DNA of 56,795 bases from Acidobacteriota bacterium (GTDB lineage: Bacteria; Acidobacteriota; Terriglobia; 20CM-2-55-15), in contig JAJEEE010000085.1 of assembly GCA_022821145.1 (NCBI GenBank), forward strand, positions 1 to 56,795, in the 5' to 3' direction. The position numbers were made by a program, and so were the translations under genes. Positions 3,633 through 41,436 of this stretch are shown one piece after another. Under the pieces are notes generated by a model, which did no database searches, was not told where the DNA came from, and saw only the letters and a program-made list of their open reading frames with translations. Positions within the stretch are counted from its first letter, which is position 1. Every line of letters begins with the position of its first letter.

Positions 3633-3792
3633 GGAGCCCGTGGTGAAACCCCGCGTCGCGCCGAGACCGGTGAGGCGCCCGTCCGGCAAGGCGCGAGGAG
3701 GGAGCATTTTCCAGATATGCGACCGACGAGCAACGCAGTCCGGACGGGATGCGCCGCCGGTCGAATGCAGCAGGGGTTTCACCACGGGCTCC
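3633..3792. repeat. Dispersed element A, copy 1, with perfect 20-bp terminal inverted repeats
   Basis: A 160-bp intergenic element bounded by perfect inverted repeats: GGAGCCCGTGGTGAAACCCC at 3633-3652 and its exact reverse complement at 3773-3792. A diverged copy with degraded ends is at 7557-7712. The interior is highly similar between copies (ACCGACGAGCAACGCAGTCC is shared exactly). It has no transposase and looks like a MITE- or REP-like element. Confidence 0.8.
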
Positions 3793-6852: not shown

Positions 6853-6894
6853 GGCCCTCCGAACCAAGCAGAACGTTCGCGATCTGTTCTTATA

Positions 6895-7005
6895 TGGTAG
6901 CCGCGGTGTTCCTCACCGCGGCTGGACAACGCGTCCATTGCATACGCAATGGACGAGGCGGACGCCGCCGCGTCAGTCCAGGAACACGATCTCTTCAACC
7001 CGGAC
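6895..7005 (-). repeat. Dispersed intergenic element C, copy 2
   Basis: Minus-strand reading: a micro-ORF whose codons give VVRVEEIVFLD-stop (GTG start possible), then a long hairpin-forming region containing GTCCATTGC...GCAATGGAC and an AGCCGCGGTG...CACCGCGGCT pair. It sits between the stop of the small coiled-coil gene (7017) and the start of the ABC ATPase. Confidence 0.7.
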
Positions 7006-7016
7006 CACTCATCGGG

Positions 7017-7270
7017 TCAGCCCAGCAACCTGAGGACACCGACCACGATGCCGGCGATGCCGACCAGAGCGCCCACGATCGCGCCCGCCTGAACGAGCAT
7101 CGCCCGGTAGAGCCTGGATTCCAGGCTGGCCAATTCGGCGCGGAGCGTCTCCGGCGTCACGTGCTCGCCGTGCTCGGCGCCTGTCGAATGGCGTCGGCCA
7201 GCACGTCGGCCTGGGCGCGTTCGATTCCGGCCGCGGTCAACTGTCGGGCGACGGTGAGTGAATCGAACAT
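7017..7270 (-). pseudogene. Short coiled-coil membrane protein (DUF1640/CCDC90-like), frameshifted
   Basis: A small protein read in two frames. From ATG 7270 the sequence begins MFDSLTVARQLTAAGIERAQ and continues to ADAIRQA, then loses frame near 7173-7183. A second frame picks up with EHGEHVTPETLRAELASLES and ends in a transmembrane helix (VGALVGIAGIVVGVLRLLG). One extra base at the break would give a continuous protein of about 84 residues of the kind found in many bacteria as a coiled coil with a C-terminal membrane anchor. The break may be a sequencing error. It is preceded by the element B promoter/leader and followed by element C. Confidence 0.65.
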
Positions 7271-7298
7271 GGAGGTCTACCTGTGTGGCCGTTGGCCG

Positions 7299-7497
7299 CG
7301 GACCAGCGCCGACGGGCCCTGGCGATACGGCCAAGCGGCAGCACGAAGACGATCAGCCGCGCTGGAACGCGACGACGCGATCGTGCAAAGTATACCACTC
7401 GGGGAACGGTCTCCGGCGCGCACGGTGAAGAGGGCGGTGTCGTAATCGATGCCGGTTTCGTTGACGAGACGGCCGCGTGCGACCGTTGATAACCGCG
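7299..7497 (-). promoter_or_regulatory. Element B, copy 1: shared promoter and 5' leader
   Basis: A 200-bp sequence that is nearly repeated at 10543-10738. On the minus strand it holds an extended -10 (TGGTATACT, about 7390-7398) followed by the shared TTTGCACGATCG and about 100 nt of leader reaching towards the ATG at 7270. Upstream of the -10 the shared block also reads as GIDYDTALFTVRAGDR in one minus frame, so it could instead derive from an old gene. Both copies lie directly 5' of an unrelated leftward gene. Confidence 0.55.
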
Positions 7498-7556
7498 TTG
7501 TCTGCAACGGTGTCCGGTGAGTCACTGGAACGACCGTGGCGGAGCGGGGAACACTA

Positions 7557-7712
7557 GGAGCGGTGCAACCCCGCGTCGCACCGAGACCGCTGAGGCGCCC
7601 GTCTGGCAGGGCGCGAGAAGGGAGCATACTCCCGAGACGTGACCGACGAGCAACGCAGTCCGGACGGGATCGATCGTCGGTCGAATGCAGCGGGGGTCTC
7701 ACCGCAGGCTCC
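7557..7712. repeat. Dispersed element A, copy 2
   Basis: A diverged copy of the 160-bp element at 3633-3792. The ends retain only part of the inverted repeat (GGAG...GGTGCAACCCC against GGGGTCTCACCGCAGGCTCC). The right end touches the stop codon of the YfiT/DinB gene at 7712, so the element inserted, or was kept, exactly at a gene end. Confidence 0.75.
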
Positions 7713-8233
7713 TACCAATCCATCCGTTGGCGCAGGGCGGTGATCTGAGCGACATGGTGCCGTCCGTGCCACGCAACTCTGGCGGAGCACTCGTCCAGCG
7801 TGACCGCGCCATACTCGGGATGGCGGAATGTGCGTCGCCAATCGTCAGCGGTCAGGCGGCGCAGGAGCGTTGACCATCGGCGATGCAACGCGTCGAGCAG
7901 TGCGATTGACACTTCGACGGGACCCGTTCGCGCGTCGGGAAGCTCGGCCCAGGCCGTCTCGTCGAACGATCGGATCGTCGGATCGTCCTCGGTCAACGCG
8001 AGCCGGAATCGCGTGTAACTGTTCAAGTGACTGTCCGGAAGATGGTGCACGACCTGGCGCACGGTCCACCCGTCGGGCCGGTACGACGTATCGAGCTGTT
8101 CCCCGGACAAACCTTCGACGGCCGCCTGCAGGCGCACCGACGCCGACTCGATTTGGCGGACGCATTCCAGCCGCCCGTCCTCGGACAGCGTTCGGGTGAA
8201 TTCGAATCGGCCGAGCGGATAGCGGAGATCCAT
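7712..8233 (-). CDS. YfiT/DinB family putative metal-dependent hydrolase (bacillithiol transferase-like)
   Basis: A 173-residue four-helix-bundle enzyme of the DinB superfamily, YfiT/BstA branch. Motifs are the N-terminal LRYPLGRFEF, GEQLDTSYRPDGWTVRQVVHHL (first His ligand), DSHLNSYTRFRLALTEDDPT, and WHGRHHVAQITALRQ (the other His ligands). The three histidines in the expected positions imply a bound divalent metal. Relatives transfer thiol cofactors to electrophiles or hydrolyse amides; the exact substrate is unknown. Length fits the family. It is a single gene with repeat A at its 3' end. The ATG start at 8233 gives the canonical N-terminus. Confidence 0.9.
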   Translation of the reverse strand: MDLRYPLGRFEFTRTLSEDGRLECVRQIESASVRLQAAVEGLSGEQLDTSYRPDGWTVRQVVHHLPDSHLNSYTRFRLALTEDDPTIRSFDETAWAELPDARTGPVEVSIALLDALHRRWSTLLRRLTADDWRRTFRHPEYGAVTLDECSARVAWHGRHHVAQITALRQRMDW

Positions 8234-8404
8234 TTTGTCGATCCCATGGTGAATGCGCGACGTAAGTGATCGCGGCGGAGGTCATCGGTTCGGATGTGAC
8301 CGCGTATCGATCCCGCCAGATCCTGCCAAGACGGTGCGCGCCGATACCGGGGGGAGCAGCGCAAACGAACAACCCGACCGGACAGCCCCAACGTACAACC
8401 CACG

Positions 8405-8512
8405 GTCCATGGCAGCCGTGGTGTTCCCCACCGCGGCTGCACAACGCGTCCATGGCTCCGCCATGGCCGCGGCGGCAGCCGCCGCCTCAGTCCAGGAAAA
8501 CAACCTCCTCAA
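8405..8512 (-). repeat. Dispersed intergenic element C, copy 3
   Basis: On the minus strand the element contains RSVRVEEVVFLD-stop (an ATG 15 codons before the stop is in frame), followed by GC-rich inverted repeats including CCATGGC...GCCATGG and a CAGCCGCGGTG...CACCACGGCTG pair. It lies in the 384-bp gap between 8233 and 8618, downstream of the small membrane protein gene; I see no protein gene in the rest of this gap. Confidence 0.7.
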
Positions 8513-8617
8513 CCCGGACCGACCGAACCAACATCACAATGGTATCGGCGGTGTTGCCCGCCCAGGACCGACCCGCGCCCACCCATGGCAAATCCGGTCA
8601 CGGCGCGTCACCCCCGG

Positions 8618-8962
8618 TCAATCATCCCCGGCCTCGCTCGAGCGTATCGCGCGCCGAACCCTGTCGATCAGCCCCCCGGATTCGTCGAACCGCTTGCGAA
8701 CGTCCTGGGCGGTCATCGGTGGATCCTGCCCCGCATCGACGATCCTGGACTTCCGCTCACGGTCGATCAACCAGCCGACCATCCCAGCCGCGAAAACTAT
8801 CGCAGTCTGTACGCCGATCCCGAGCTCGTCCAGACCCAGGTACTCGCCGAGCCACATCCACGCCAGCCCCACCCCCATACCGGAAACGGCCCCCGTCAGC
8901 CACGCGCCGCCCGGCTTGGAGGCGCCCTCGCGTTCGTCCCGATCCACTCCTGGATGTTTCAT
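8618..8962 (-). CDS. Small membrane protein of unknown function
   Basis: A 114-residue protein not assigned to a family. A charged N-terminus (MKHPGVDRDEREGASKP) is followed by two hydrophobic segments (about residues 20-40 and 50-66, ending GMVGWLIDRERK) and a charged soluble tail. The layout resembles small two-helix proteins such as AtpZ, but no diagnostic motif is present and there is no ATP synthase gene nearby. The ATG at 8962 is the only plausible start. The gene stands alone among repeats, and its product is likely in the inner membrane. Confidence 0.6.
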   Translation of the reverse strand: MKHPGVDRDEREGASKPGGAWLTGAVSGMGVGLAWMWLGEYLGLDELGIGVQTAIVFAAGMVGWLIDRERKSRIVDAGQDPPMTAQDVRKRFDESGGLIDRVRRAIRSSEAGDD

Positions 8963-9341
8963 GACCGTGATACGGCTTCTGCGCGGCCCTCACGGGCTGT
9001 TCGCAGAAACCCGCCCAGCCTGTCTCGATCTCATGATATGGAATCCGGTCGACCGGCGGCAACCAGAGCGGCCGCCGTCGAGGTTGTCGAGGCGGCGCCG
9101 GCGCACGCGGTCCGGAACCTGCATCCCGGCGGGCCACGCGGCCCGGCGCATGCGGACGACACGGTCCGCTCTGAGACCTGCGGTCTGACGATACGAGGGA
9201 ACAAGCCGCGTTAGCGAAGCCCGCGACGGGCGCCGCGAGCATGTGGTGGAGCAGCGTCCCAGCCGATGGTGTACGAAGCGCCGGGGACGAGCGCGAAGGC
9301 GTAGCCCGATCCGTCTTCGTCCGGTTACACCCGGCGATCGA
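8963..9341. other. Gap with no supported gene
   Basis: Open frames here are short, Arg/Pro-rich and not conserved in character. One minus frame reads GYAFALVPGASYTIGWDAAP, which might be a decayed coding remnant, but nothing supports a gene. Confidence 0.4.
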
Positions 9342-9755
9342 TCAGCGGGCGAGCCAACCCACAAGCGCCCCGATGGCCGCTCCCGGAAAAGCAGCCCTCG
9401 CGCCTGTAGGAGCACACCTCGTATCTATAGCCGCTCCGATGACGCAGCCGGTGGAAAACCCGGCGACCGCTCCGATAAACACTCCCTTGGTCACCGGACC
9501 CATTCCAGCATTCGTCGGTGGGGGCGGGGACTGACGCTGGCCATCCGCGGTTTCCCGGTTCCGGCCGTCTACTTGCTCGGCCTGTTCCTCCTGGTCGTGG
9601 AAACGGGCCGACGACGGCCGCAGGTGTTCATAGGCGAACGCCATCTCGGCCGCCGTGGGTAGTTCGTCGAAGGTCGGGGGCTCAGCCGCGGCCGCCGTTG
9701 CGGCCGCCACCGTGCAGCCGAGCGTGACCGCGGCACACGATCTCGTCCAGTGCAT
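9342..9755 (-). CDS. Exported protein with glycine-rich hydrophobic tail
   Basis: A 137-residue protein starting at ATG 9755. The N-terminus is a signal peptide (MHWTRSCAAVTLGCTVAAAT, cleaved near AAAAEPP). A central stretch is polar and charged, and the C-terminal 50 residues are Gly/Ala-rich with GVFIGAVAGFSTGCVIGAAI and GAAIGALVGWLAR, resembling glycine-zipper segments that insert in membranes. A role in the envelope is likely; no enzymatic motif is seen. The preceding in-frame GTG is also possible but leaves no better signal. Confidence 0.6.
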   Translation of the reverse strand: MHWTRSCAAVTLGCTVAAATAAAAEPPTFDELPTAAEMAFAYEHLRPSSARFHDQEEQAEQVDGRNRETADGQRQSPPPPTNAGMGPVTKGVFIGAVAGFSTGCVIGAAIDTRCAPTGARAAFPGAAIGALVGWLAR

Positions 9756-9964
9756 CACGGCGCCTCCACACGCGATCGTATCGCAATCGCCTCAGTCGAT
9801 CCCAGGCTCCACGATGCGCAGTCGCGTGTGCCGGACAACGGCCGTCCCCGATAATGACCCGTTCGTTCCGGCCCTGACCCACGATTGACGAGCGACTGTC
9901 CGACCCGTGACGCCACCGGCAAGCAAGTCGACGCCCGATCCGTTTCCCTGGCCAGGCTCCACGA

Positions 9965-10510
9965 TCAGTTCGTCGCGCCGGCCACCTCCGCCTCGTAGAT
10001 CAACTCGCGATTTTCGTTCAGAGCACCGACCCCGGCGCCGATACCGGCCCAGAATCCCCAGTACGTCAGTACATTGCCCGGGGTAGCCTCCAACTGCGGA
10101 TCGCTTCCCCTGAATTGAAAGGACCCGAGGAGCAAGGCGATAGCCGATCCGATCCAGAAGCCTCTCCAGATGTGGCTGCCGCGAACCACGGAAACGCGCA
10201 GGATGTCCGCTCGGGAAACGCCGTGATCGTCTCCGTCCCGTTCAAGAATCAGTGTTCGCGCATCAGCGAAACGGAACCGGCCACGCATCTCATCCCCGCT
10301 CAACAATTCCACGCGGACGGCCGAGTCCACGGGGACGGCCAAGACCACGTCCCACGACGGAACGACTTCCTCATCCGACGGGGTTGTCTGGAAGCGCGCG
10401 TGGTACGGGCTCCGCAACCCGGCGCAGCCGGTGAGGAACGTGTTGCCGATCAGCGTCGTCAGGACCAGCAGGCAACCGAGTCGGACCGAAGGCCCGCTAC
10501 AACCCGACAT
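9965..10510 (-). CDS. Putative lipoprotein of unknown function
   Basis: A 181-residue protein with a lipoprotein signal peptide: basic N-terminus, hydrophobic core and lipobox LTGC (Cys about residue 29). Residues 60-100 form a predicted small beta domain (VRVELLSGDEMRGRFRF, then LILERDGD), reminiscent of an SH3-like or LSm-like barrel. Two hydrophobic segments follow (HIWRGFWIGSAIALLLGSF and NVLTYWGFWAGIGAGVGAL). Function unknown. The ATG at 10510 has AGGAGG just upstream, and element B (promoter and leader) lies directly 5', shared with the gene at 7270. Confidence 0.7.
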   Translation of the reverse strand: MSGCSGPSVRLGCLLVLTTLIGNTFLTGCAGLRSPYHARFQTTPSDEEVVPSWDVVLAVPVDSAVRVELLSGDEMRGRFRFADARTLILERDGDDHGVSRADILRVSVVRGSHIWRGFWIGSAIALLLGSFQFRGSDPQLEATPGNVLTYWGFWAGIGAGVGALNENRELIYEAEVAGATN

Positions 10511-10542
10511 AGCGATTCCTCCTCGTCACGTCAGCGCCACCG

Positions 10543-10738
10543 GCCAGCGCCGACGGGTTCCGGCCGCACGATCCGGCGGCGGCACGAAGACGATCGGCCG
10601 CGCTGCAACGCGGCGACACGATCGTGCAAAGTATACCAACTGGGGGCCGGTCTCCGGCGCGCACGGTGAAGAGGGCGGTGTCGTAGTCGATACCCCTTTC
10701 GTCCAGAAGACGGACGCCTACGCCGGTTGACAACCGCG
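10543..10738 (-). promoter_or_regulatory. Element B, copy 2: shared promoter and 5' leader
   Basis: Near-identical to 7299-7497. Minus-strand TTGGTATACTTTGCACGATC is shared almost exactly, followed by a conserved leader segment (GATCGTCTTCGTGC) and then the lipoprotein ATG at 10510. Conservation is stronger around the -10 and leader than in the flanks. Confidence 0.55.
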
Positions 10739-11380
10739 TAGTCCCGAGCGGGGGACGACGGTGCGGAGCCGTGAATTTCCGACGCGCCCACCGGTCCGAC
10801 GGTCACCATACAAGCCAAGACCGGGTTCACGTTCTCGATCCGGCATCTTGAACGGACGGTCGTACGGGGCAACGGCGCAACACTGGGAACGTCGCCCAGA
10901 GGCGCGGACGGATTTCCACCGCGGCAGGCGGAATGACGGCATGAAGCGGCTCAACTACGACGAGCCCTCGCGCGATCGTGGACAGCAAGAAAACGTTCGG
11001 CGACCATACTGGGGGACATCGGGGCGCCCGAATCTCGGAAGGCGACTCCGAACGCGTTCCCGGAGATGACGATGGGCCACGCCGGGCGCCCCGGTCAGGC
11101 CCACGTGCGAACGCGCCTGACAGCGATTCTGGTGTATGCGGACGAAGCGGACAAGCCATGTGTCGACGAGGCGGCCGCCACGCGCGTTGGCCGCGGGCGG
11201 GACACCGTCCGCACGGGACGCCCCGGCATGTTAAGGTTGTCGCCGGCATCGGTCGCGATACCGGGAACCTCGTCTTCGCGGGAGACGACTTGCGCACACC
11301 CTCGGTAAACGGCGGCGCCGCCGCGGCCGAAGCAGCGGCCGGCCGGCCGGCTGTCACGGGCTCCGAGATTCGACGTCCGA
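10739..11380. other. 640-bp gap with no supported gene
   Basis: Only short or Arg-rich open frames are present on both strands. No RNA gene, repeat or promoter could be supported, apart from the undefined upstream region of the oxygenase gene at 11381. Confidence 0.4.
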
Positions 11381-34325: not shown

Positions 34326-37001
34326 TCAGCCGGGATCGTTGCAGAACACGACGTCGATGGCGCGTTCGATCCCGTCGATCCAGCTCCTGAACTCGGCCGT
34401 TTCCGGCACGCACAACCCATCGTTCGGGCCGAGGACCAAAAGGTCCAGCCTGGTAAGCGTCAGGAATTCCCGGGGCAGCGAGCCGGTCAGCCGGTTGGCG
34501 CCGAGGTTCACGTGGATCAACTCGGCGAGCGCTCCCAGCTCCGCCGGGACCGCTCCGGTCAGCCCGTTGTAGTTCAGCCACAACGACGACAGGCGGGTGA
34601 GCGCTCCCAGTTCCGGCGGGATGGCTCCCGTCAGTCCGTTTCCCGCGAGGTGAATATAGGTCAGATTCTCGAGGTTCCCCAACCACGCCGGAATCGATCC
34701 GGTGAGGCGGTTGTCGCTGAGACCGAGGTGCTGCAAGTTCGCCAGTGACGCGAGTTCCCGCGGAATCGTTCCCGTCAATCGATTACTGCCGAGAATCAAC
34801 GTGCGGAGGCTATCGAGACCGCCGAGTTCCGGCGGGATCGCGCCGGTCAGATCGTTGTGGTTCAGACTCAGCGTCGAAAGGCTGGAAAGGGAACCCAGTT
34901 CCGGCGGGATCGCGCCGTCAATCGCGTTGCCATCGAGCGCGAGGTCGCGGAGAAGGGGCAACGCGCCCAGTTCCGGCGGAATCGGACCGGTCAGATCGTT
35001 ACCCGCGAGTACGAGGTTCGTCAGGCCGGTCAGCGCGCCCAGTTCCGGCGGAATCGAACCGGTCAGATTGTTACTCATGAGTAGGAGGGTCGTCAGGCCG
35101 GTCAGCGCGCCCAGTTCCGGCGGAATCGAACCGGTCAGATCGTTCGCGGGGAGCCAGATCGAACTCACGCGTCCGTCGCCATCCACCCGGATCCCGTGCC
35201 ACTCCGAAAGGGGACGGTCGCTGAGCCAGTTCTCGTCGTTGACCCAGTCCTCGCCGCCGGTGGACTCATAGAGCGCCTCCAGCGCGGACCGGTCCGCCAA
35301 TGTCGCCGTCACCGTCACGGTGACCGACGCCTCCGCCGTGCGCCCATCGAAACCGACCACCGTGATCCGATACGTGGTCGTTTCTTCCGGGGACACAATC
35401 CTCGATCCGGACACGGGCACGGCGCCGACGTCCGGCGTGATCGTCGCGCGGATAGCGTCCGTCGCCGACCACGTCAACGTCGCCGCCCGGCCCGGCGCGA
35501 TCGAGTCGCGCGACGTCGTCAGCGTGACGGTCGGCGCGACCGGTCCGACCAGGACCGGCGGCAGCGTATTGAACGTGGCGATGGCGCCGTCCGCGTCGAG
35601 CTCGAAGTGCAACCCGATGGCGGCCACGGTCTGATCGCACCCCGCGCGCGCCGTTCCGCCCCGGAAGCCTTCCGGAATCTCGACAACCCCGTTCAGCAAT
35701 TGCGCCACGTTGGTCCTGGCCGGCGCCGCGATTGGGGCCTCGCCCACGCGAACCCCTGCGTGATCGTCCAACACGATACGGCAGACAGCGTCCACGTCCG
35801 TGTCGTTGGCGATCGCCAACCCCACCGTGCCGGCGGGAGTGAGGACCGGAAGCTGGAAAAACCGATCGGCCTGCGCGCTGAAAACCGTCGCCATTCCCGT
35901 GGGCCGCCCGGCGGCCCCGTTCCGCGCGAAGACGACCTGCGCCACGACCGGCGCCGTGCAATCCAGCGTTGCGTAGCCGGAGGCCAACGCCTGTTCGTTC
36001 CGCGTGCCCCACACCAGGTAGCCGCCCGCGCGGCCCAACTCGAAAGCCGCCGCCTTGCCCGCCGCCTCGATCCCCTCCGCCGCCTGGAAACGATCCGTCG
36101 TCAAGCCTACGAGCTCCAGCGTGCACCGGCTGGCGATGTCCGCCACGTTCGTCACCAGCAGGGAGGACCGCCAGCCGTCCCCGTCCGCGATATGCGGCAG
36201 GACATGGACGCGCTTCGCCTGCCGGTCGGGGTCGCGGGGAAACGTATCGAGAAGCGCCGGCGGCAGCGTGTTGAACGTGACGATGCTTCCGTCGGGCTCC
36301 AGCTCGAAGTGCAGCCCGACCATCGCGACCCGCCGGCTGCAGGACACCGCCGCCGATCCGCCGGCGAACCCCTCCGGCACGGCAACGGCCTCATGGAGCA
36401 TGTGCGCCCGGCTGGTCTTCGGGGGCACCGCGATCGACGCCTTGCCCAGTTGCGTCCGTTGCGGATCCTCGTGGACGATCCCGCACTCCGACTCGACTTC
36501 GTTGTCGTTGGCGATCGCGAAACCGAGCGTTCCCGCCGCCGTCGTGACGGGAAACTGGAAGTCCCAACCCACCTGCGTGCTGAACACCGTGGCGATCCCC
36601 GTCGGCCGCTCCCCGTCCCCGTGCCATGCGAACACGACCTGCGCCGTCACCGCGCCGTTGCAATCGACGGTGGCGTATCCGGACCCCAACGCCCGTTCGT
36701 TCCGGGTGTGCCAGACCAGGCTCCCCCCGGAGGCGGCCAGCTCGAAGGTCGCCGCGGCGCCCGACGCCGTCACGCCCGCGGTGTCCTCGAACCGGCCCAC
36801 GTCCAGCCCGTACAACTCGAGCGTGCAGAAGCTTGCCGATTGCGCCGCGTTGGTCATCAGCACGGACGACCGCCACCCGTCCCCGTCGGCGATGTGCGGC
36901 AGAATATGCAGTCGTCGGGCCTGCGCGTCGGACTGCGCCGCCGCGGGCGACGCCGACGCGAGCGCCGCCCAGGCGGCCGCCAGCAGCGTGGCGTGCTTCA
37001 T
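34326..37001 (-). CDS. Secreted leucine-rich-repeat protein with two HIADG modules
   Basis: 891 residues. Signal peptide (MKHATLLAAAWAALASASPA), then two HIADG modules (about 28-250 and 260-490; ILPHIADGDGWRSSVLMTN and VLPHIADGDGWRSSLLVTN). An Ig-like domain follows (about 495-570), then some ten plant-type LRRs of 24 residues (LTGSIPPELGALTGL and variants; about 620-840) and a Cys-containing cap. LRR surfaces of this type bind proteins or glycans, so a recognition role outside the cell is likely. It lies 52 bp downstream of the paralogous metalloprotease gene and shares its N-terminal 570 residues in architecture, which points to tandem duplication. ATG 37001 is preceded by GAGGA. Confidence 0.88.
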   Translation of the reverse strand: MKHATLLAAAWAALASASPAAAQSDAQARRLHILPHIADGDGWRSSVLMTNAAQSASFCTLELYGLDVGRFEDTAGVTASGAAATFELAASGGSLVWHTRNERALGSGYATVDCNGAVTAQVVFAWHGDGERPTGIATVFSTQVGWDFQFPVTTAAGTLGFAIANDNEVESECGIVHEDPQRTQLGKASIAVPPKTSRAHMLHEAVAVPEGFAGGSAAVSCSRRVAMVGLHFELEPDGSIVTFNTLPPALLDTFPRDPDRQAKRVHVLPHIADGDGWRSSLLVTNVADIASRCTLELVGLTTDRFQAAEGIEAAGKAAAFELGRAGGYLVWGTRNEQALASGYATLDCTAPVVAQVVFARNGAAGRPTGMATVFSAQADRFFQLPVLTPAGTVGLAIANDTDVDAVCRIVLDDHAGVRVGEAPIAAPARTNVAQLLNGVVEIPEGFRGGTARAGCDQTVAAIGLHFELDADGAIATFNTLPPVLVGPVAPTVTLTTSRDSIAPGRAATLTWSATDAIRATITPDVGAVPVSGSRIVSPEETTTYRITVVGFDGRTAEASVTVTVTATLADRSALEALYESTGGEDWVNDENWLSDRPLSEWHGIRVDGDGRVSSIWLPANDLTGSIPPELGALTGLTTLLLMSNNLTGSIPPELGALTGLTNLVLAGNDLTGPIPPELGALPLLRDLALDGNAIDGAIPPELGSLSSLSTLSLNHNDLTGAIPPELGGLDSLRTLILGSNRLTGTIPRELASLANLQHLGLSDNRLTGSIPAWLGNLENLTYIHLAGNGLTGAIPPELGALTRLSSLWLNYNGLTGAVPAELGALAELIHVNLGANRLTGSLPREFLTLTRLDLLVLGPNDGLCVPETAEFRSWIDGIERAIDVVFCNDPG

Positions 37002-37053: not shown

Positions 37054-40000
37054 CTACCGGCTCCAATCCGCGGGGTCGGGGAGCCCGCGGCTGGTCGTCG
37101 CTTCCATGCCCGGTTCCAGGGGCAACGCGAACGCCGCCGTGCCCGGGGCCGCCCGGGACGGGCGGTCGCGCAGGATGCCGCGCACCTGTCCCGTCGCCGA
37201 ATTGCGCAGGATCGTCACGGGCCGGTCGGTGTTCCCGTCCAGCGTCGCGAAGCCGCCGGGTCCCATGAGCGTGACGCCGGCCAGATCGTCGGCCCAACCC
37301 GGGTCGACGGGAACCGCGAAGGCGAACGACGACTGCCCGTCGCCGTCGTCCACCTTCGGCATCTCGAACGCCAGCGAGAAGAGATCCGCGCCGTCGGCCG
37401 TCCGGCCGACGAGTCTGTAATCGCCCGTGGATGTCGGCAACGACGCCGGCGCGTCGACCACGAAGGCGGGCTCCAGGAACGGCGCCCCGCCCGCGTCCAC
37501 GCCGCCCCACAACAGCAGCGAGCGCCCCGGGGCGACGGATCGCGACGCTCCGGCGTCGACGGATCGCGACGCTCCGGCGTCGACGGATTCCGACGCTCCA
37601 GCGTCGACGGATTCCGACGCTCCGGCGTCGACGGCCCGCGACTCCTCGGCGGCAAAGGTAAACAATATCCCGCGCCAGCCGATGGTCGCGTCGTAGATCC
37701 GGAAACCCAGCGCATTCGAAAAATGGTAATCGCTGATCCAGTGGGGGCGGCGGCAGAAGGACATCAAGTCCGGCGTCGCCGGCGAGACCAGGCGGCCGCC
37801 GTCGCGGAAATCGTACCCCCAGACGCCGGTGGAGCCGTCGTCGTTGGGGAACATGCGGTCCAGACTCACATCGGCGCGGCACGGCGCGTGCTGGAGACTG
37901 AAGTTGTGGCCCAGCTCGTGCGCGATCACGAACGGATTCGGCGTCACGAAACTCGTCTTGAAGCGCTGGTAGGCCACGCCCGCGGCGCCGCCGGTGACCG
38001 CGCCCGCGATCGTCCCCATGTAATGCGTGTCCGCGCCCTCCATCGCGTGAATCATCGTCGTCTCTCTCAGGAGCGTATGGGCGTTGGCGGTGTCCACCGT
38101 CACCGGTTCGTGCGCCTTCACTTCGAGTTCCCCGATCGGCAGCAATGCGCGCGCGTCCTCGAGGAGCTCGTGGCCCTCTGGATCGGCGGCCATGGCCTCG
38201 ACCAGCTCCACGATCGACCTGTCCGGAGCGGATCTCCGGACGAACGGAATCATCGTCAGATCGAAGCCGGGGGCCGTCCGGACGTGGACGGGCAATCGGC
38301 CGCTCTCCGGGATCCGCCGCGTCAGCTCCAGTTCCGGGTCCAAAGTCTGATCGGGATCGACAATGGCCACCAGCTCCAGGCCCGGCTGCACGACGTCCGC
38401 CGGCACGCGGGCGTTCACGGACCCTTCCAGCGATCCCTCGTCCACCTCGGCCGGGATCGGCGCGGAACCGGCCGGGATGTCCATGGAATGCACCTCGAGG
38501 CCGTCGAGGTAGAACCGGACCCATACCGGCGGAAGCGTCGCGCCGCCAGCGTCCGGCGCCGTCACGAACACCCGCAGCAGAGCTTCCTCGCCCGCTATGA
38601 GCGACACCGGGAACCGGCGCGACTGCGCGGCCTGTGTCAGGTACACCGGCGGCGGGTCGCCGCAGGCCGGGAGCCTTTGTTTCTGGATTCCGGAAAGCCA
38701 ATTCCGAAAGCCGGCGTCCGAAGGCGCGCACAAGCCGGTATCCGTGGTCAGAAGCTCCTGAATTCGAATCGCGCCGGCCAACTCGACGGGCAACGCGCCA
38801 GACATGCGCGCGTTGCCGCTGACCTTCAGAATCTCAAGGTTCTCCAGACCGCCGAGTTCCGGCGGCACATTCCCGGTCAGGTCATTGTCGTCGAGGTAAA
38901 TCCACCGCAGGTTGGGCGCGCTTCCCAGCTCCTGCGGAATCGGCCCCGTCAGATCGTTGCCGGTGAGGTACAGGTAGTGCAAGAGCGGCAACGGTCCCAG
39001 TTCCGGCGGAATCGGCCCCGTCAGACGGTTCCCGCGCAGGTCGAGGTCGACAACGCGTGAGAGCCCACCCAGTTCCGGCGGGATGCGTCCGGTCAACCGA
39101 TTGAAGGGCAGGTACAGGGACTTCAATACACTCAGGCGCCCCAGCTCGGCCGGAATCGGCCCCGTCAGATCGTTGTTTCCGAGCTCCACAGTCCTCAGAT
39201 TGGTGAGCGCGCCCAACTCCGGCGGAATCGGCCCCGTCAAACCGTTGTGTTGCAGGAACAGGAGCTCGACGTCGGTCAGCGCACCCAGCTCCGGCGGAAT
39301 CGGTCCGGTCAGCTTGTTGAAGCGGAGGGACAGTTTCTTCAACCGGGTGAGCGCACCCAGCTCCGGCGGAATCGGTCCCGTCATTTGGCCCGGGATTCCC
39401 AAAAATCCACCCGGGCCGCCGGAAAGGTCCAGAAGCGTCAAGCGTGTCAGGTTTCCCAGCTCGGGCGGGATGGAACCGGACAGGTAATTGTTGAACAGAT
39501 CCAGCTCCGTCAAGTGGATCAGCCCGGCCAGCTCACGCGGAACGGGCACTCTCAAGTTGTTGTTGTCGAGTTTCAGCCCCGTCACGCGACCCTCGTCGTC
39601 GACCCTCACTCCGTGCCACGTCGAGAGGGGGCGGTCCGTCAACCAGTTCTGGTTTATGCGCCAGTTCTCGCCGTCGGTCGCTTCGTACAACACCCTCAGC
39701 ACGTCCCGGGCCGACGCCTCCACGGCTACCGTGACCGTCGTCGTGGCGGTGCGGCCATCCGCCCCGACGACGGTGATCCGGTACGTGGTCGTGACCCCCG
39801 GAGAGACCTCCCGCGTTCCGGACGTGGACACGGACCCGATGTCCGGCGTGATCGTGGCGCTGACCGCGTCCGTCGAAGACCAGTCCAGCGTCGCGGCCCC
39901 TCCCGCCTCGATCGCGTCGCGCGACACGGTCAGCGTCACCGTCGGTGGTGGAAGATCGCCGCCCGAGATGGAATCGACCACGGCCGGCGGCAGGGTGTTG

Positions 40001-41436
40001 AACGTGGCGATCTGCCCGTCCGGCGCCAGCTCGAAGTGCAAGCCGATGGCGGCCACCGTCCGGTCGCAGCCCACGCGCGCCTTTCCGCCCACGAAATCTT
40101 CCGGAATCTCGACGACCGCGTTGAGCAACCGCGACACATTCGTCTTCGCCGGTACGGCGATGGCGACGTTGCCCACGCGAACCCTCGCCTGATCGTCCAG
40201 CACGATGCGGCACGTGGCGTCGTCCGGGGTGTCGTTGGCGATCGCGAAACCCACCGTGGCGGCCGGCGTCAGGACCGGAAGCTGAAAGAACCGATCGGCC
40301 TGGGAACTGAAGACCGTCGCCATGCCCGTGGGCCTCTCCCCCTCCCCGGCCCATGCGAAAACGACCTGCGCCACGACCGGCGCCGAACAATCCAGCGTCG
40401 CGTAGCCGGAAGCCGGCGCTCCCTCGGCCCGCGTGCCCCACACGAGGTAACCGCCCGTACGCCCCAGCTCGAACGCGGCCGTCGACCTCGACGCCTCGAT
40501 CCCCTCCGCCGCCTGGAACCGGTCCGCCGTCAGCCCCCGCAGCTCCAGCGCGCACCGGCTGTCGGACCCCTCCACGTTCGTCACGATCAGGGACGATCGC
40601 CATCCCCCGCCGTCGGCGATGTGCGGCAGGATGTGCTGACGCTTCGCCTGTTCGTTGGAACCGAACAGAAACGTATCCAGGAGCGCCGGCGGCAGCGTGT
40701 TGAACGTGACGATCGCCCCGTCCGGCTCCAGCTCGAAATGAAGCCCCATCATCGCGACCTGACGGTTGCACGACACCGTCGCCGATCCGCCGACGAAGCC
40801 TTCCGGGATCGGGATGGCCATGTGCAGCATCCGCGCCCGGTTGGTCTTCGACGGCGCCGCAACCGACGCCTCGCCCAGGTTCGTCCGAAGCGGGTCCTCG
40901 AGGACGATGTCGCACTCCGCCTCGAAGTCGCTGTCGTTCGCAATGGCGAACCCCAGAGTCCCCGCCGCCGTCAACACCGGGAACTGGAACTCCCGCCCCT
41001 TCTGCGCGCTGAACACCGTGGCGCTCCCCGACGGACGCTCCCCGTCCCCGAGCCACGCGAACACCACCTGCGCAACCACGGCCGCGTTGCAATCGACGGT
41101 CGCGTATCCCGACGCCAACGCCGCGGCGTTCCGGCTGTCCCAGACCAGGCTGCCGCCGCGGCCCGCCAGCTCGAACGTCGCCATGGACCCGGACGCCGTC
41201 ACGCCGTCGATGGCCTCGAACCGGTCCACGCCCAGCCCGTGCAGTCGCAGCGTGCAGAAAGCGGCCGATTCGGCGACGTTGGTCACCAGCACGGACGAGC
41301 GCCACCCGTCCCCGTCGGCGACGTGCGGCAGGATGTGCGAATGCTTCGCCTGATCGTCGGACTGCGCCGACACCGGCAGGGCCCACAGGAGGGCCGCAAG
41401 AACAACGGAGACTCTTCGGAGGAGTTCCACCACCAC
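37054..41436 (-). CDS. Secreted LRR zinc metalloprotease with two HIADG modules
   Basis: 1,460 residues. GTG start (three consecutive GTGs from 41436, AAAGGACC upstream) and signal peptide ending PVSAQ. Two HIADG modules (about 30-255 and 265-495), an Ig-like domain (505-575) and plant-type LRRs (about 620-880) precede a beta-rich region and a metalloprotease domain with HELGHNFSLQH (zinc ligands His1173, His1177, His1183; Glu1174 catalytic) and a downstream DLMSFCRRP that may serve as the Met-turn of metzincins. After four 8-residue VDAGAS(R/E)S repeats comes a C-terminal beta domain. The fusion of LRR recognition and a metzincin suggests a targeted extracellular protease. It is probably co-transcribed with the LRR protein downstream. 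Confidence 0.9.
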   Translation of the reverse strand: MVVELLRRVSVVLAALLWALPVSAQSDDQAKHSHILPHVADGDGWRSSVLVTNVAESAAFCTLRLHGLGVDRFEAIDGVTASGSMATFELAGRGGSLVWDSRNAAALASGYATVDCNAAVVAQVVFAWLGDGERPSGSATVFSAQKGREFQFPVLTAAGTLGFAIANDSDFEAECDIVLEDPLRTNLGEASVAAPSKTNRARMLHMAIPIPEGFVGGSATVSCNRQVAMMGLHFELEPDGAIVTFNTLPPALLDTFLFGSNEQAKRQHILPHIADGGGWRSSLIVTNVEGSDSRCALELRGLTADRFQAAEGIEASRSTAAFELGRTGGYLVWGTRAEGAPASGYATLDCSAPVVAQVVFAWAGEGERPTGMATVFSSQADRFFQLPVLTPAATVGFAIANDTPDDATCRIVLDDQARVRVGNVAIAVPAKTNVSRLLNAVVEIPEDFVGGKARVGCDRTVAAIGLHFELAPDGQIATFNTLPPAVVDSISGGDLPPPTVTLTVSRDAIEAGGAATLDWSSTDAVSATITPDIGSVSTSGTREVSPGVTTTYRITVVGADGRTATTTVTVAVEASARDVLRVLYEATDGENWRINQNWLTDRPLSTWHGVRVDDEGRVTGLKLDNNNLRVPVPRELAGLIHLTELDLFNNYLSGSIPPELGNLTRLTLLDLSGGPGGFLGIPGQMTGPIPPELGALTRLKKLSLRFNKLTGPIPPELGALTDVELLFLQHNGLTGPIPPELGALTNLRTVELGNNDLTGPIPAELGRLSVLKSLYLPFNRLTGRIPPELGGLSRVVDLDLRGNRLTGPIPPELGPLPLLHYLYLTGNDLTGPIPQELGSAPNLRWIYLDDNDLTGNVPPELGGLENLEILKVSGNARMSGALPVELAGAIRIQELLTTDTGLCAPSDAGFRNWLSGIQKQRLPACGDPPPVYLTQAAQSRRFPVSLIAGEEALLRVFVTAPDAGGATLPPVWVRFYLDGLEVHSMDIPAGSAPIPAEVDEGSLEGSVNARVPADVVQPGLELVAIVDPDQTLDPELELTRRIPESGRLPVHVRTAPGFDLTMIPFVRRSAPDRSIVELVEAMAADPEGHELLEDARALLPIGELEVKAHEPVTVDTANAHTLLRETTMIHAMEGADTHYMGTIAGAVTGGAAGVAYQRFKTSFVTPNPFVIAHELGHNFSLQHAPCRADVSLDRMFPNDDGSTGVWGYDFRDGGRLVSPATPDLMSFCRRPHWISDYHFSNALGFRIYDATIGWRGILFTFAAEESRAVDAGASESVDAGASESVDAGASRSVDAGASRSVAPGRSLLLWGGVDAGGAPFLEPAFVVDAPASLPTSTGDYRLVGRTADGADLFSLAFEMPKVDDGDGQSSFAFAVPVDPGWADDLAGVTLMGPGGFATLDGNTDRPVTILRNSATGQVRGILRDRPSRAAPGTAAFALPLEPGMEATTSRGLPDPADWSR
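37534..37629 (-). repeat. Four tandem 24-bp coding repeats in the metalloprotease
   Basis: Four units of GACGGATCGCGACGCTCCGG plus CGTC (plus strand; units 3-4 have ATTCC for ATCGC), followed by a partial unit. They encode VDAGAS(R/E)S on the minus strand. As a whole-codon repeat, unit loss or gain keeps the frame, so length polymorphism in a linker is expected. Confidence 0.85.

Follow-up and report, generated by a model that had tools for sequence, protein, structure and literature searches.

The window analysed here, a contig of 56,795 nucleotides from an Acidobacteriota bacterium, carries on its minus strand two copies of a 208-bp repeat, spaced about 3 kb apart, each preceding a different leftward gene. 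The two copies, which we call A and B, align without gaps at 82% identity (BLASTN, E 6e-53), leaving 24 bases between copy A and the start codon of gene A at 7270, and 25 bases between copy B and the start codon of gene B at 10510. A previous sequence-only reading of this DNA had described a match of about 200 bp upstream of two different leftward genes, and this match is real and slightly longer than claimed. The features of the locus are the following:

6894..7006, no strand: left copy of the direct repeat that bounds segment 1, 113 bp, 85% identical to 8409-8520
7007..8408, no strand: segment 1, missing at the syntenic place in the nearest genome; contains gene A with copy A before it, together with a DinB_2 gene
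7017..7270, minus: frameshifted gene A, for a small membrane protein of CCDC90-like type; its paralog matches PF07798 below cut-off
7295..7502, minus: repeat copy A (upstream half, promoter-like core and leader)
7378..7397, minus: invariant core TGGTATACTTTGCACGATCG of copy A, a putative extended -10, identical run of 20
7407..7444, minus: 38-base identical run of copy A, upstream of the core
8409..8520, no strand: right copy of the direct repeat that bounds segment 1, 85% identical to 6894-7006
9084..10977, no strand: segment 2, missing at the syntenic place in the nearest genome; contains gene B with copy B before it, together with a Gly-zipper-like gene
9965..10510, minus: gene B, open reading frame of 181 aa, lipoprotein-like (lipobox read by eye)
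10536..10743, minus: repeat copy B
10619..10638, minus: invariant core of copy B, a putative extended -10, identical run of 20
10648..10685, minus: 38-base identical run of copy B, upstream of the core

Of the 38 differences between the copies, 20 fall within the 105 bases that precede the GGTATACT box, none within a 19-base core, and 18 within the 84 bases that follow it; the earlier description of the copies as near-identical is therefore accurate for the core and overstated for the rest of the 208 bp. The 19 difference-free bases start at TGGTATACT (TGG) in both copies, and the 20 bases TGGTATACTTTGCACGATCG are identical in A and B. The 38-base identical run has p 0.007 for such a length when the differences are placed at random. 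The motif TGGTATACTTTG has two exact matches in the window and three at up to two mismatches, against 0.37 expected, and at up to one mismatch it was no commoner than the control across 11 genomes.

The genes behind the two copies

Gene A is CCDC90-like as judged through its intact paralog on contig C59 of the same genome, the C59 paralog, which scores below the Pfam cut-off: the paralog resembles the CCDC90-like family PF07798 in aligning to the first 34 profile positions (E 9.5e-5), and differs from it in reaching 22.8 bits against the curated cut-off of 33.5 bits, gene A being in addition frameshifted, while its tail alone gave no family in Pfam. The start of gene A reads MFDSLTVARQLTAAGIERAQADVLADAIRQA, followed by a one-base departure from the frame of the C59 paralog, with one base fewer than the latter, and a stop is found after 37 codons in the ATG frame; this loss of frame may be genuine or may stem from an error in the sequence. 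The placement of a different gene behind each copy, as first read, is correct, but the gene at 7270 is not intact. Coding homology between gene A and the C59 paralog starts 12-13 nt upstream of the ATG, and the ortholog of this paralog in the nearest genome, G001, which belongs to a sister species, has one frameshift and one stop codon. The CCDC90-like matches used here were the C59 paralog, its sister ortholog, G000:C88 and G001:C261, with the others left out. The intact CCDC90-like paralog, at L060:7285-7536 (+), is followed by an open reading frame that resembles by eye a type I restriction subunit.

Gene B is lipoprotein-like according to its N-terminus, which was read by eye both in the sequence-only reading and here. 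It matched no Pfam family at cut-off, and the three weak relatives that were found for it were left out of the analysis.

The promoter-like core and its distance to the start codon

The start of the GGTATACT box lies 126 nt before the ATG at gene A, at the C59 paralog and at the sister ortholog of the latter, and 127 nt before the ATG at gene B. A leader of about 100 nt had been claimed, and a long putative leader before each gene is supported, with the box-to-ATG distance being 126/127 nt. In shuffle tests of the 52-base core (-150..-99), which take in the box itself, the score of gene A against C59, a likeness that was spotted first and tested afterwards, was reached in 0 of 2000 global and 1 of 2000 local shuffles, and that of gene B against C59 in 0 and 12 of 2000, respectively. 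Against the sister ortholog, which is not independent of C59, the corresponding counts were 0 and 3 of 2000 for A, and 4 and 35 for B. When the box is removed, the flanks of A and C59 are identical at 21 of 40 positions, a level reached at 198 of 145,942 random places, and the box-less flanks agree at 20-21 of 40 positions across the core comparisons. Past the core, the leaders of A and C59 show no detectable homology (21/83 identical ungapped; 813 of 2000 shuffles score as well), so that their equal length of 126 nt may be due to chance or to a constraint on length.

A consensus scan gave no -35/-10 pair at the box, and the GGTATACT box is absent upstream of two more CCDC90-like genes (G000:C88 and G001:C261). 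A genome-wide promoter class was considered and rejected, given that GGTATACT occurs 16 times in the genome against 10 for the reversed control, and is thus only slightly commoner. With the sites of A, B and C59 set aside, 7 of the remaining 13 are followed, 27-58 nt downstream, by an ATG with an open frame of at least 278 codons, an uncontrolled count that includes some sites inside longer open frames.

Variable segments and the search for further copies

In the nearest genome, G001, the left flank of the locus is 96-98% identical and the sequence from 11313 on is 91% identical, and G001, whose assembly is 85% complete, is without window positions 7007-8408 and 9084-10977, the two segments bearing copies A and B, while the intervening sequence is found there at 76%. 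Neither gene A nor gene B is present at this sister locus. The 113-bp direct repeat that flanks segment 1 is found there as a single copy, which makes a gain or loss of segment 1 by recombination between the repeats plausible. Relatives of parts of segment 1 (the DinB_2 gene and a dispersed repeat) and of parts of segment 2 occur elsewhere in both genomes. The dispersed repeat, of about 160 bp, lies at 7554-7714 and 3642-3792, with many copies in this genome and in the sister genome among the matches listed, and the Gly-zipper-like gene (9342-9758) has two related stretches, at 70-71%, on contig C67 of the same genome.

Copies A and B are the only two copies of the 208-bp repeat in their own genome. 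A DNA search of 101 genomes, including this one, gave matches in two, namely this genome and G058 (29 bases, 90%), and a profile search of 250 genomes, again including this one, scored the two copies at 127 bits and everything else at no more than 21.7 bits, under stricter filters by which weak relatives could be missed. There was no convincing relative in the 100 relatives of the DNA search or in the 249 of the profile search. The profile built from both copies, R1, did yield hits with E values of up to 0.1 in 112 of the 250 genomes, all of them below 22 bits apart from the two copies themselves; the alignments at L081, L082, L062, L064 and L066, which were inspected as possible relatives, all lack the TATACT box and were taken as compositional, with the one at L081 sitting antisense to an open reading frame named by eye as FG-GAP-like. 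Plasmid and phage records had no match to copy A or copy B. Searched with an exact 17-mer taken from the core, genome_contigs gave 10 stretches and viral_contigs gave none, and R1 matched at 0 of these 10 places, where the likeness does not extend beyond the 17-mer. The presence of two copies in the genome, with no convincing relatives, argues against both a multi-copy mobile promoter and a widespread RNA family.

Probable origin of the shared promoter-like region

Judged from sequence, a promoter-like core and its leader were duplicated long ago and now stand in two copies before two unrelated small genes. The duplication is real and of a known kind, and it supports the shared core and long leader described in the first reading. 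We think it rather probable that an old local duplication placed a GGTATACT promoter with its long leader before the CCDC90-like and the lipoprotein-like genes. The GGTATACT-type promoter and an untranslated leader of about 115 nt would have been copied by recombination and not by transposition, and the two unrelated leftward genes, the CCDC90-like one now being frameshifted, would then be transcribed from sister promoters, with the box acting as the active -10 for both. In favour of this local duplication are the 38 differences over 208 bases, none of which touches the 19-base core, and the position of the box at the C59 paralog and its sister ortholog, again 126 nt ahead of the ATG, although there are only 16 such boxes genome-wide. 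If the rest of this explanation holds, the CCDC90-like gene would on balance have been the donor of the promoter, an assignment made uncertain by the lack of detectable A/C59 leader homology beyond the core; and given that gene A is broken, one promoter of the pair may have nothing to serve. The repeat founds no new class of system, but it offers a small, easily read example in which unrelated genes share a control region following duplication, set in a variable part of the DNA of a GC-rich bacterium, with conserved flanks on either side, and if the box is an active promoter, the locus would make it simple to test how new genes come to be expressed.

The descent of both copies from a duplicated gene, an alternative already named in the sequence-only reading, is unlikely, with weak support from the upstream half only. 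In this case, the upstream half would be a decayed coding sequence encoding the IDYDTALFTVRAGDR peptide, and the box would be incidental or inside the lost gene. The sole open frame before the box keeps the residue in 26 of 34 codons against 21.7 expected (p 0.011, as one of 18 tests), and 10 of its 20 changes fall at third positions, but third positions are also kept in the 38-base run, and the part after the box has no coding signal. A search with the IDYDTALFTVRAGDR peptide in 150 relatives gave one weak match only (residues 32-68, in G078, with internal stops), and none in genome_contigs. As residues are kept above chance in the upstream half, the local duplication of promoter and leader may have included part of a lost gene.

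It is doubtful that a leader hairpin works as a cis-regulatory RNA controlling the two envelope genes, as had been suggested. Both leaders are predicted to form a hairpin (CACGAUC...GAUCGU) at their 5' end, with all 18 pairs surviving 4 changes, and the leader of copy A folds better than its shuffles (z -3.86), but that of copy B is unremarkable (z -0.43), and for the 66-nt parts z is -1.28 and -1.51. When the same changes are placed at random, all the pairs survive in 2706 of 20,000 trials, and no pair is changed on both sides, so these two sequences provide no evidence of selection on the hairpin. Rfam had no match at gathering score in the window, and the leaders of the C59 paralog and its sister ortholog are unrelated to those bearing the hairpin. 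We give about as little credit to joint control of small envelope proteins of unrelated families by a lineage-specific core and a fixed 126-nt leader, conserved in length and not in sequence.

The least probable origin is a mobile promoter element spreading in multiple copies, a mobile module having also been proposed in the first reading: the same 208-bp unit does precede two unrelated genes within two segments missing from the sister genome, but more than two copies before different genes were found neither in this genome nor in the 100 (DNA) and 249 (profile) relatives, and the plasmid, phage and 17-mer searches above gave nothing that extends. Mobile promoters are promoter stretches repeated upstream of different genes, which the repeat resembles in recurring before different genes, and from which it differs in having two copies that are close together, 18% diverged, and show no sign of spreading. 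Regulatory switching, or horizontal regulatory transfer of intergenic regions (Oren et al. 2014), is defined, as presented in PMC5890482, so as to include regulatory regions originating elsewhere in the same genome, and here a regulatory region would likewise precede a gene to which it did not at first belong; the present locus differs in that no other, alternative region is seen before the same gene in another strain, both genes being absent from the sister locus. Further along the window, there is a separate 1.8-kb repeat (35165-36968 and 39582-41397, 77%), with more internal repeats nearby.
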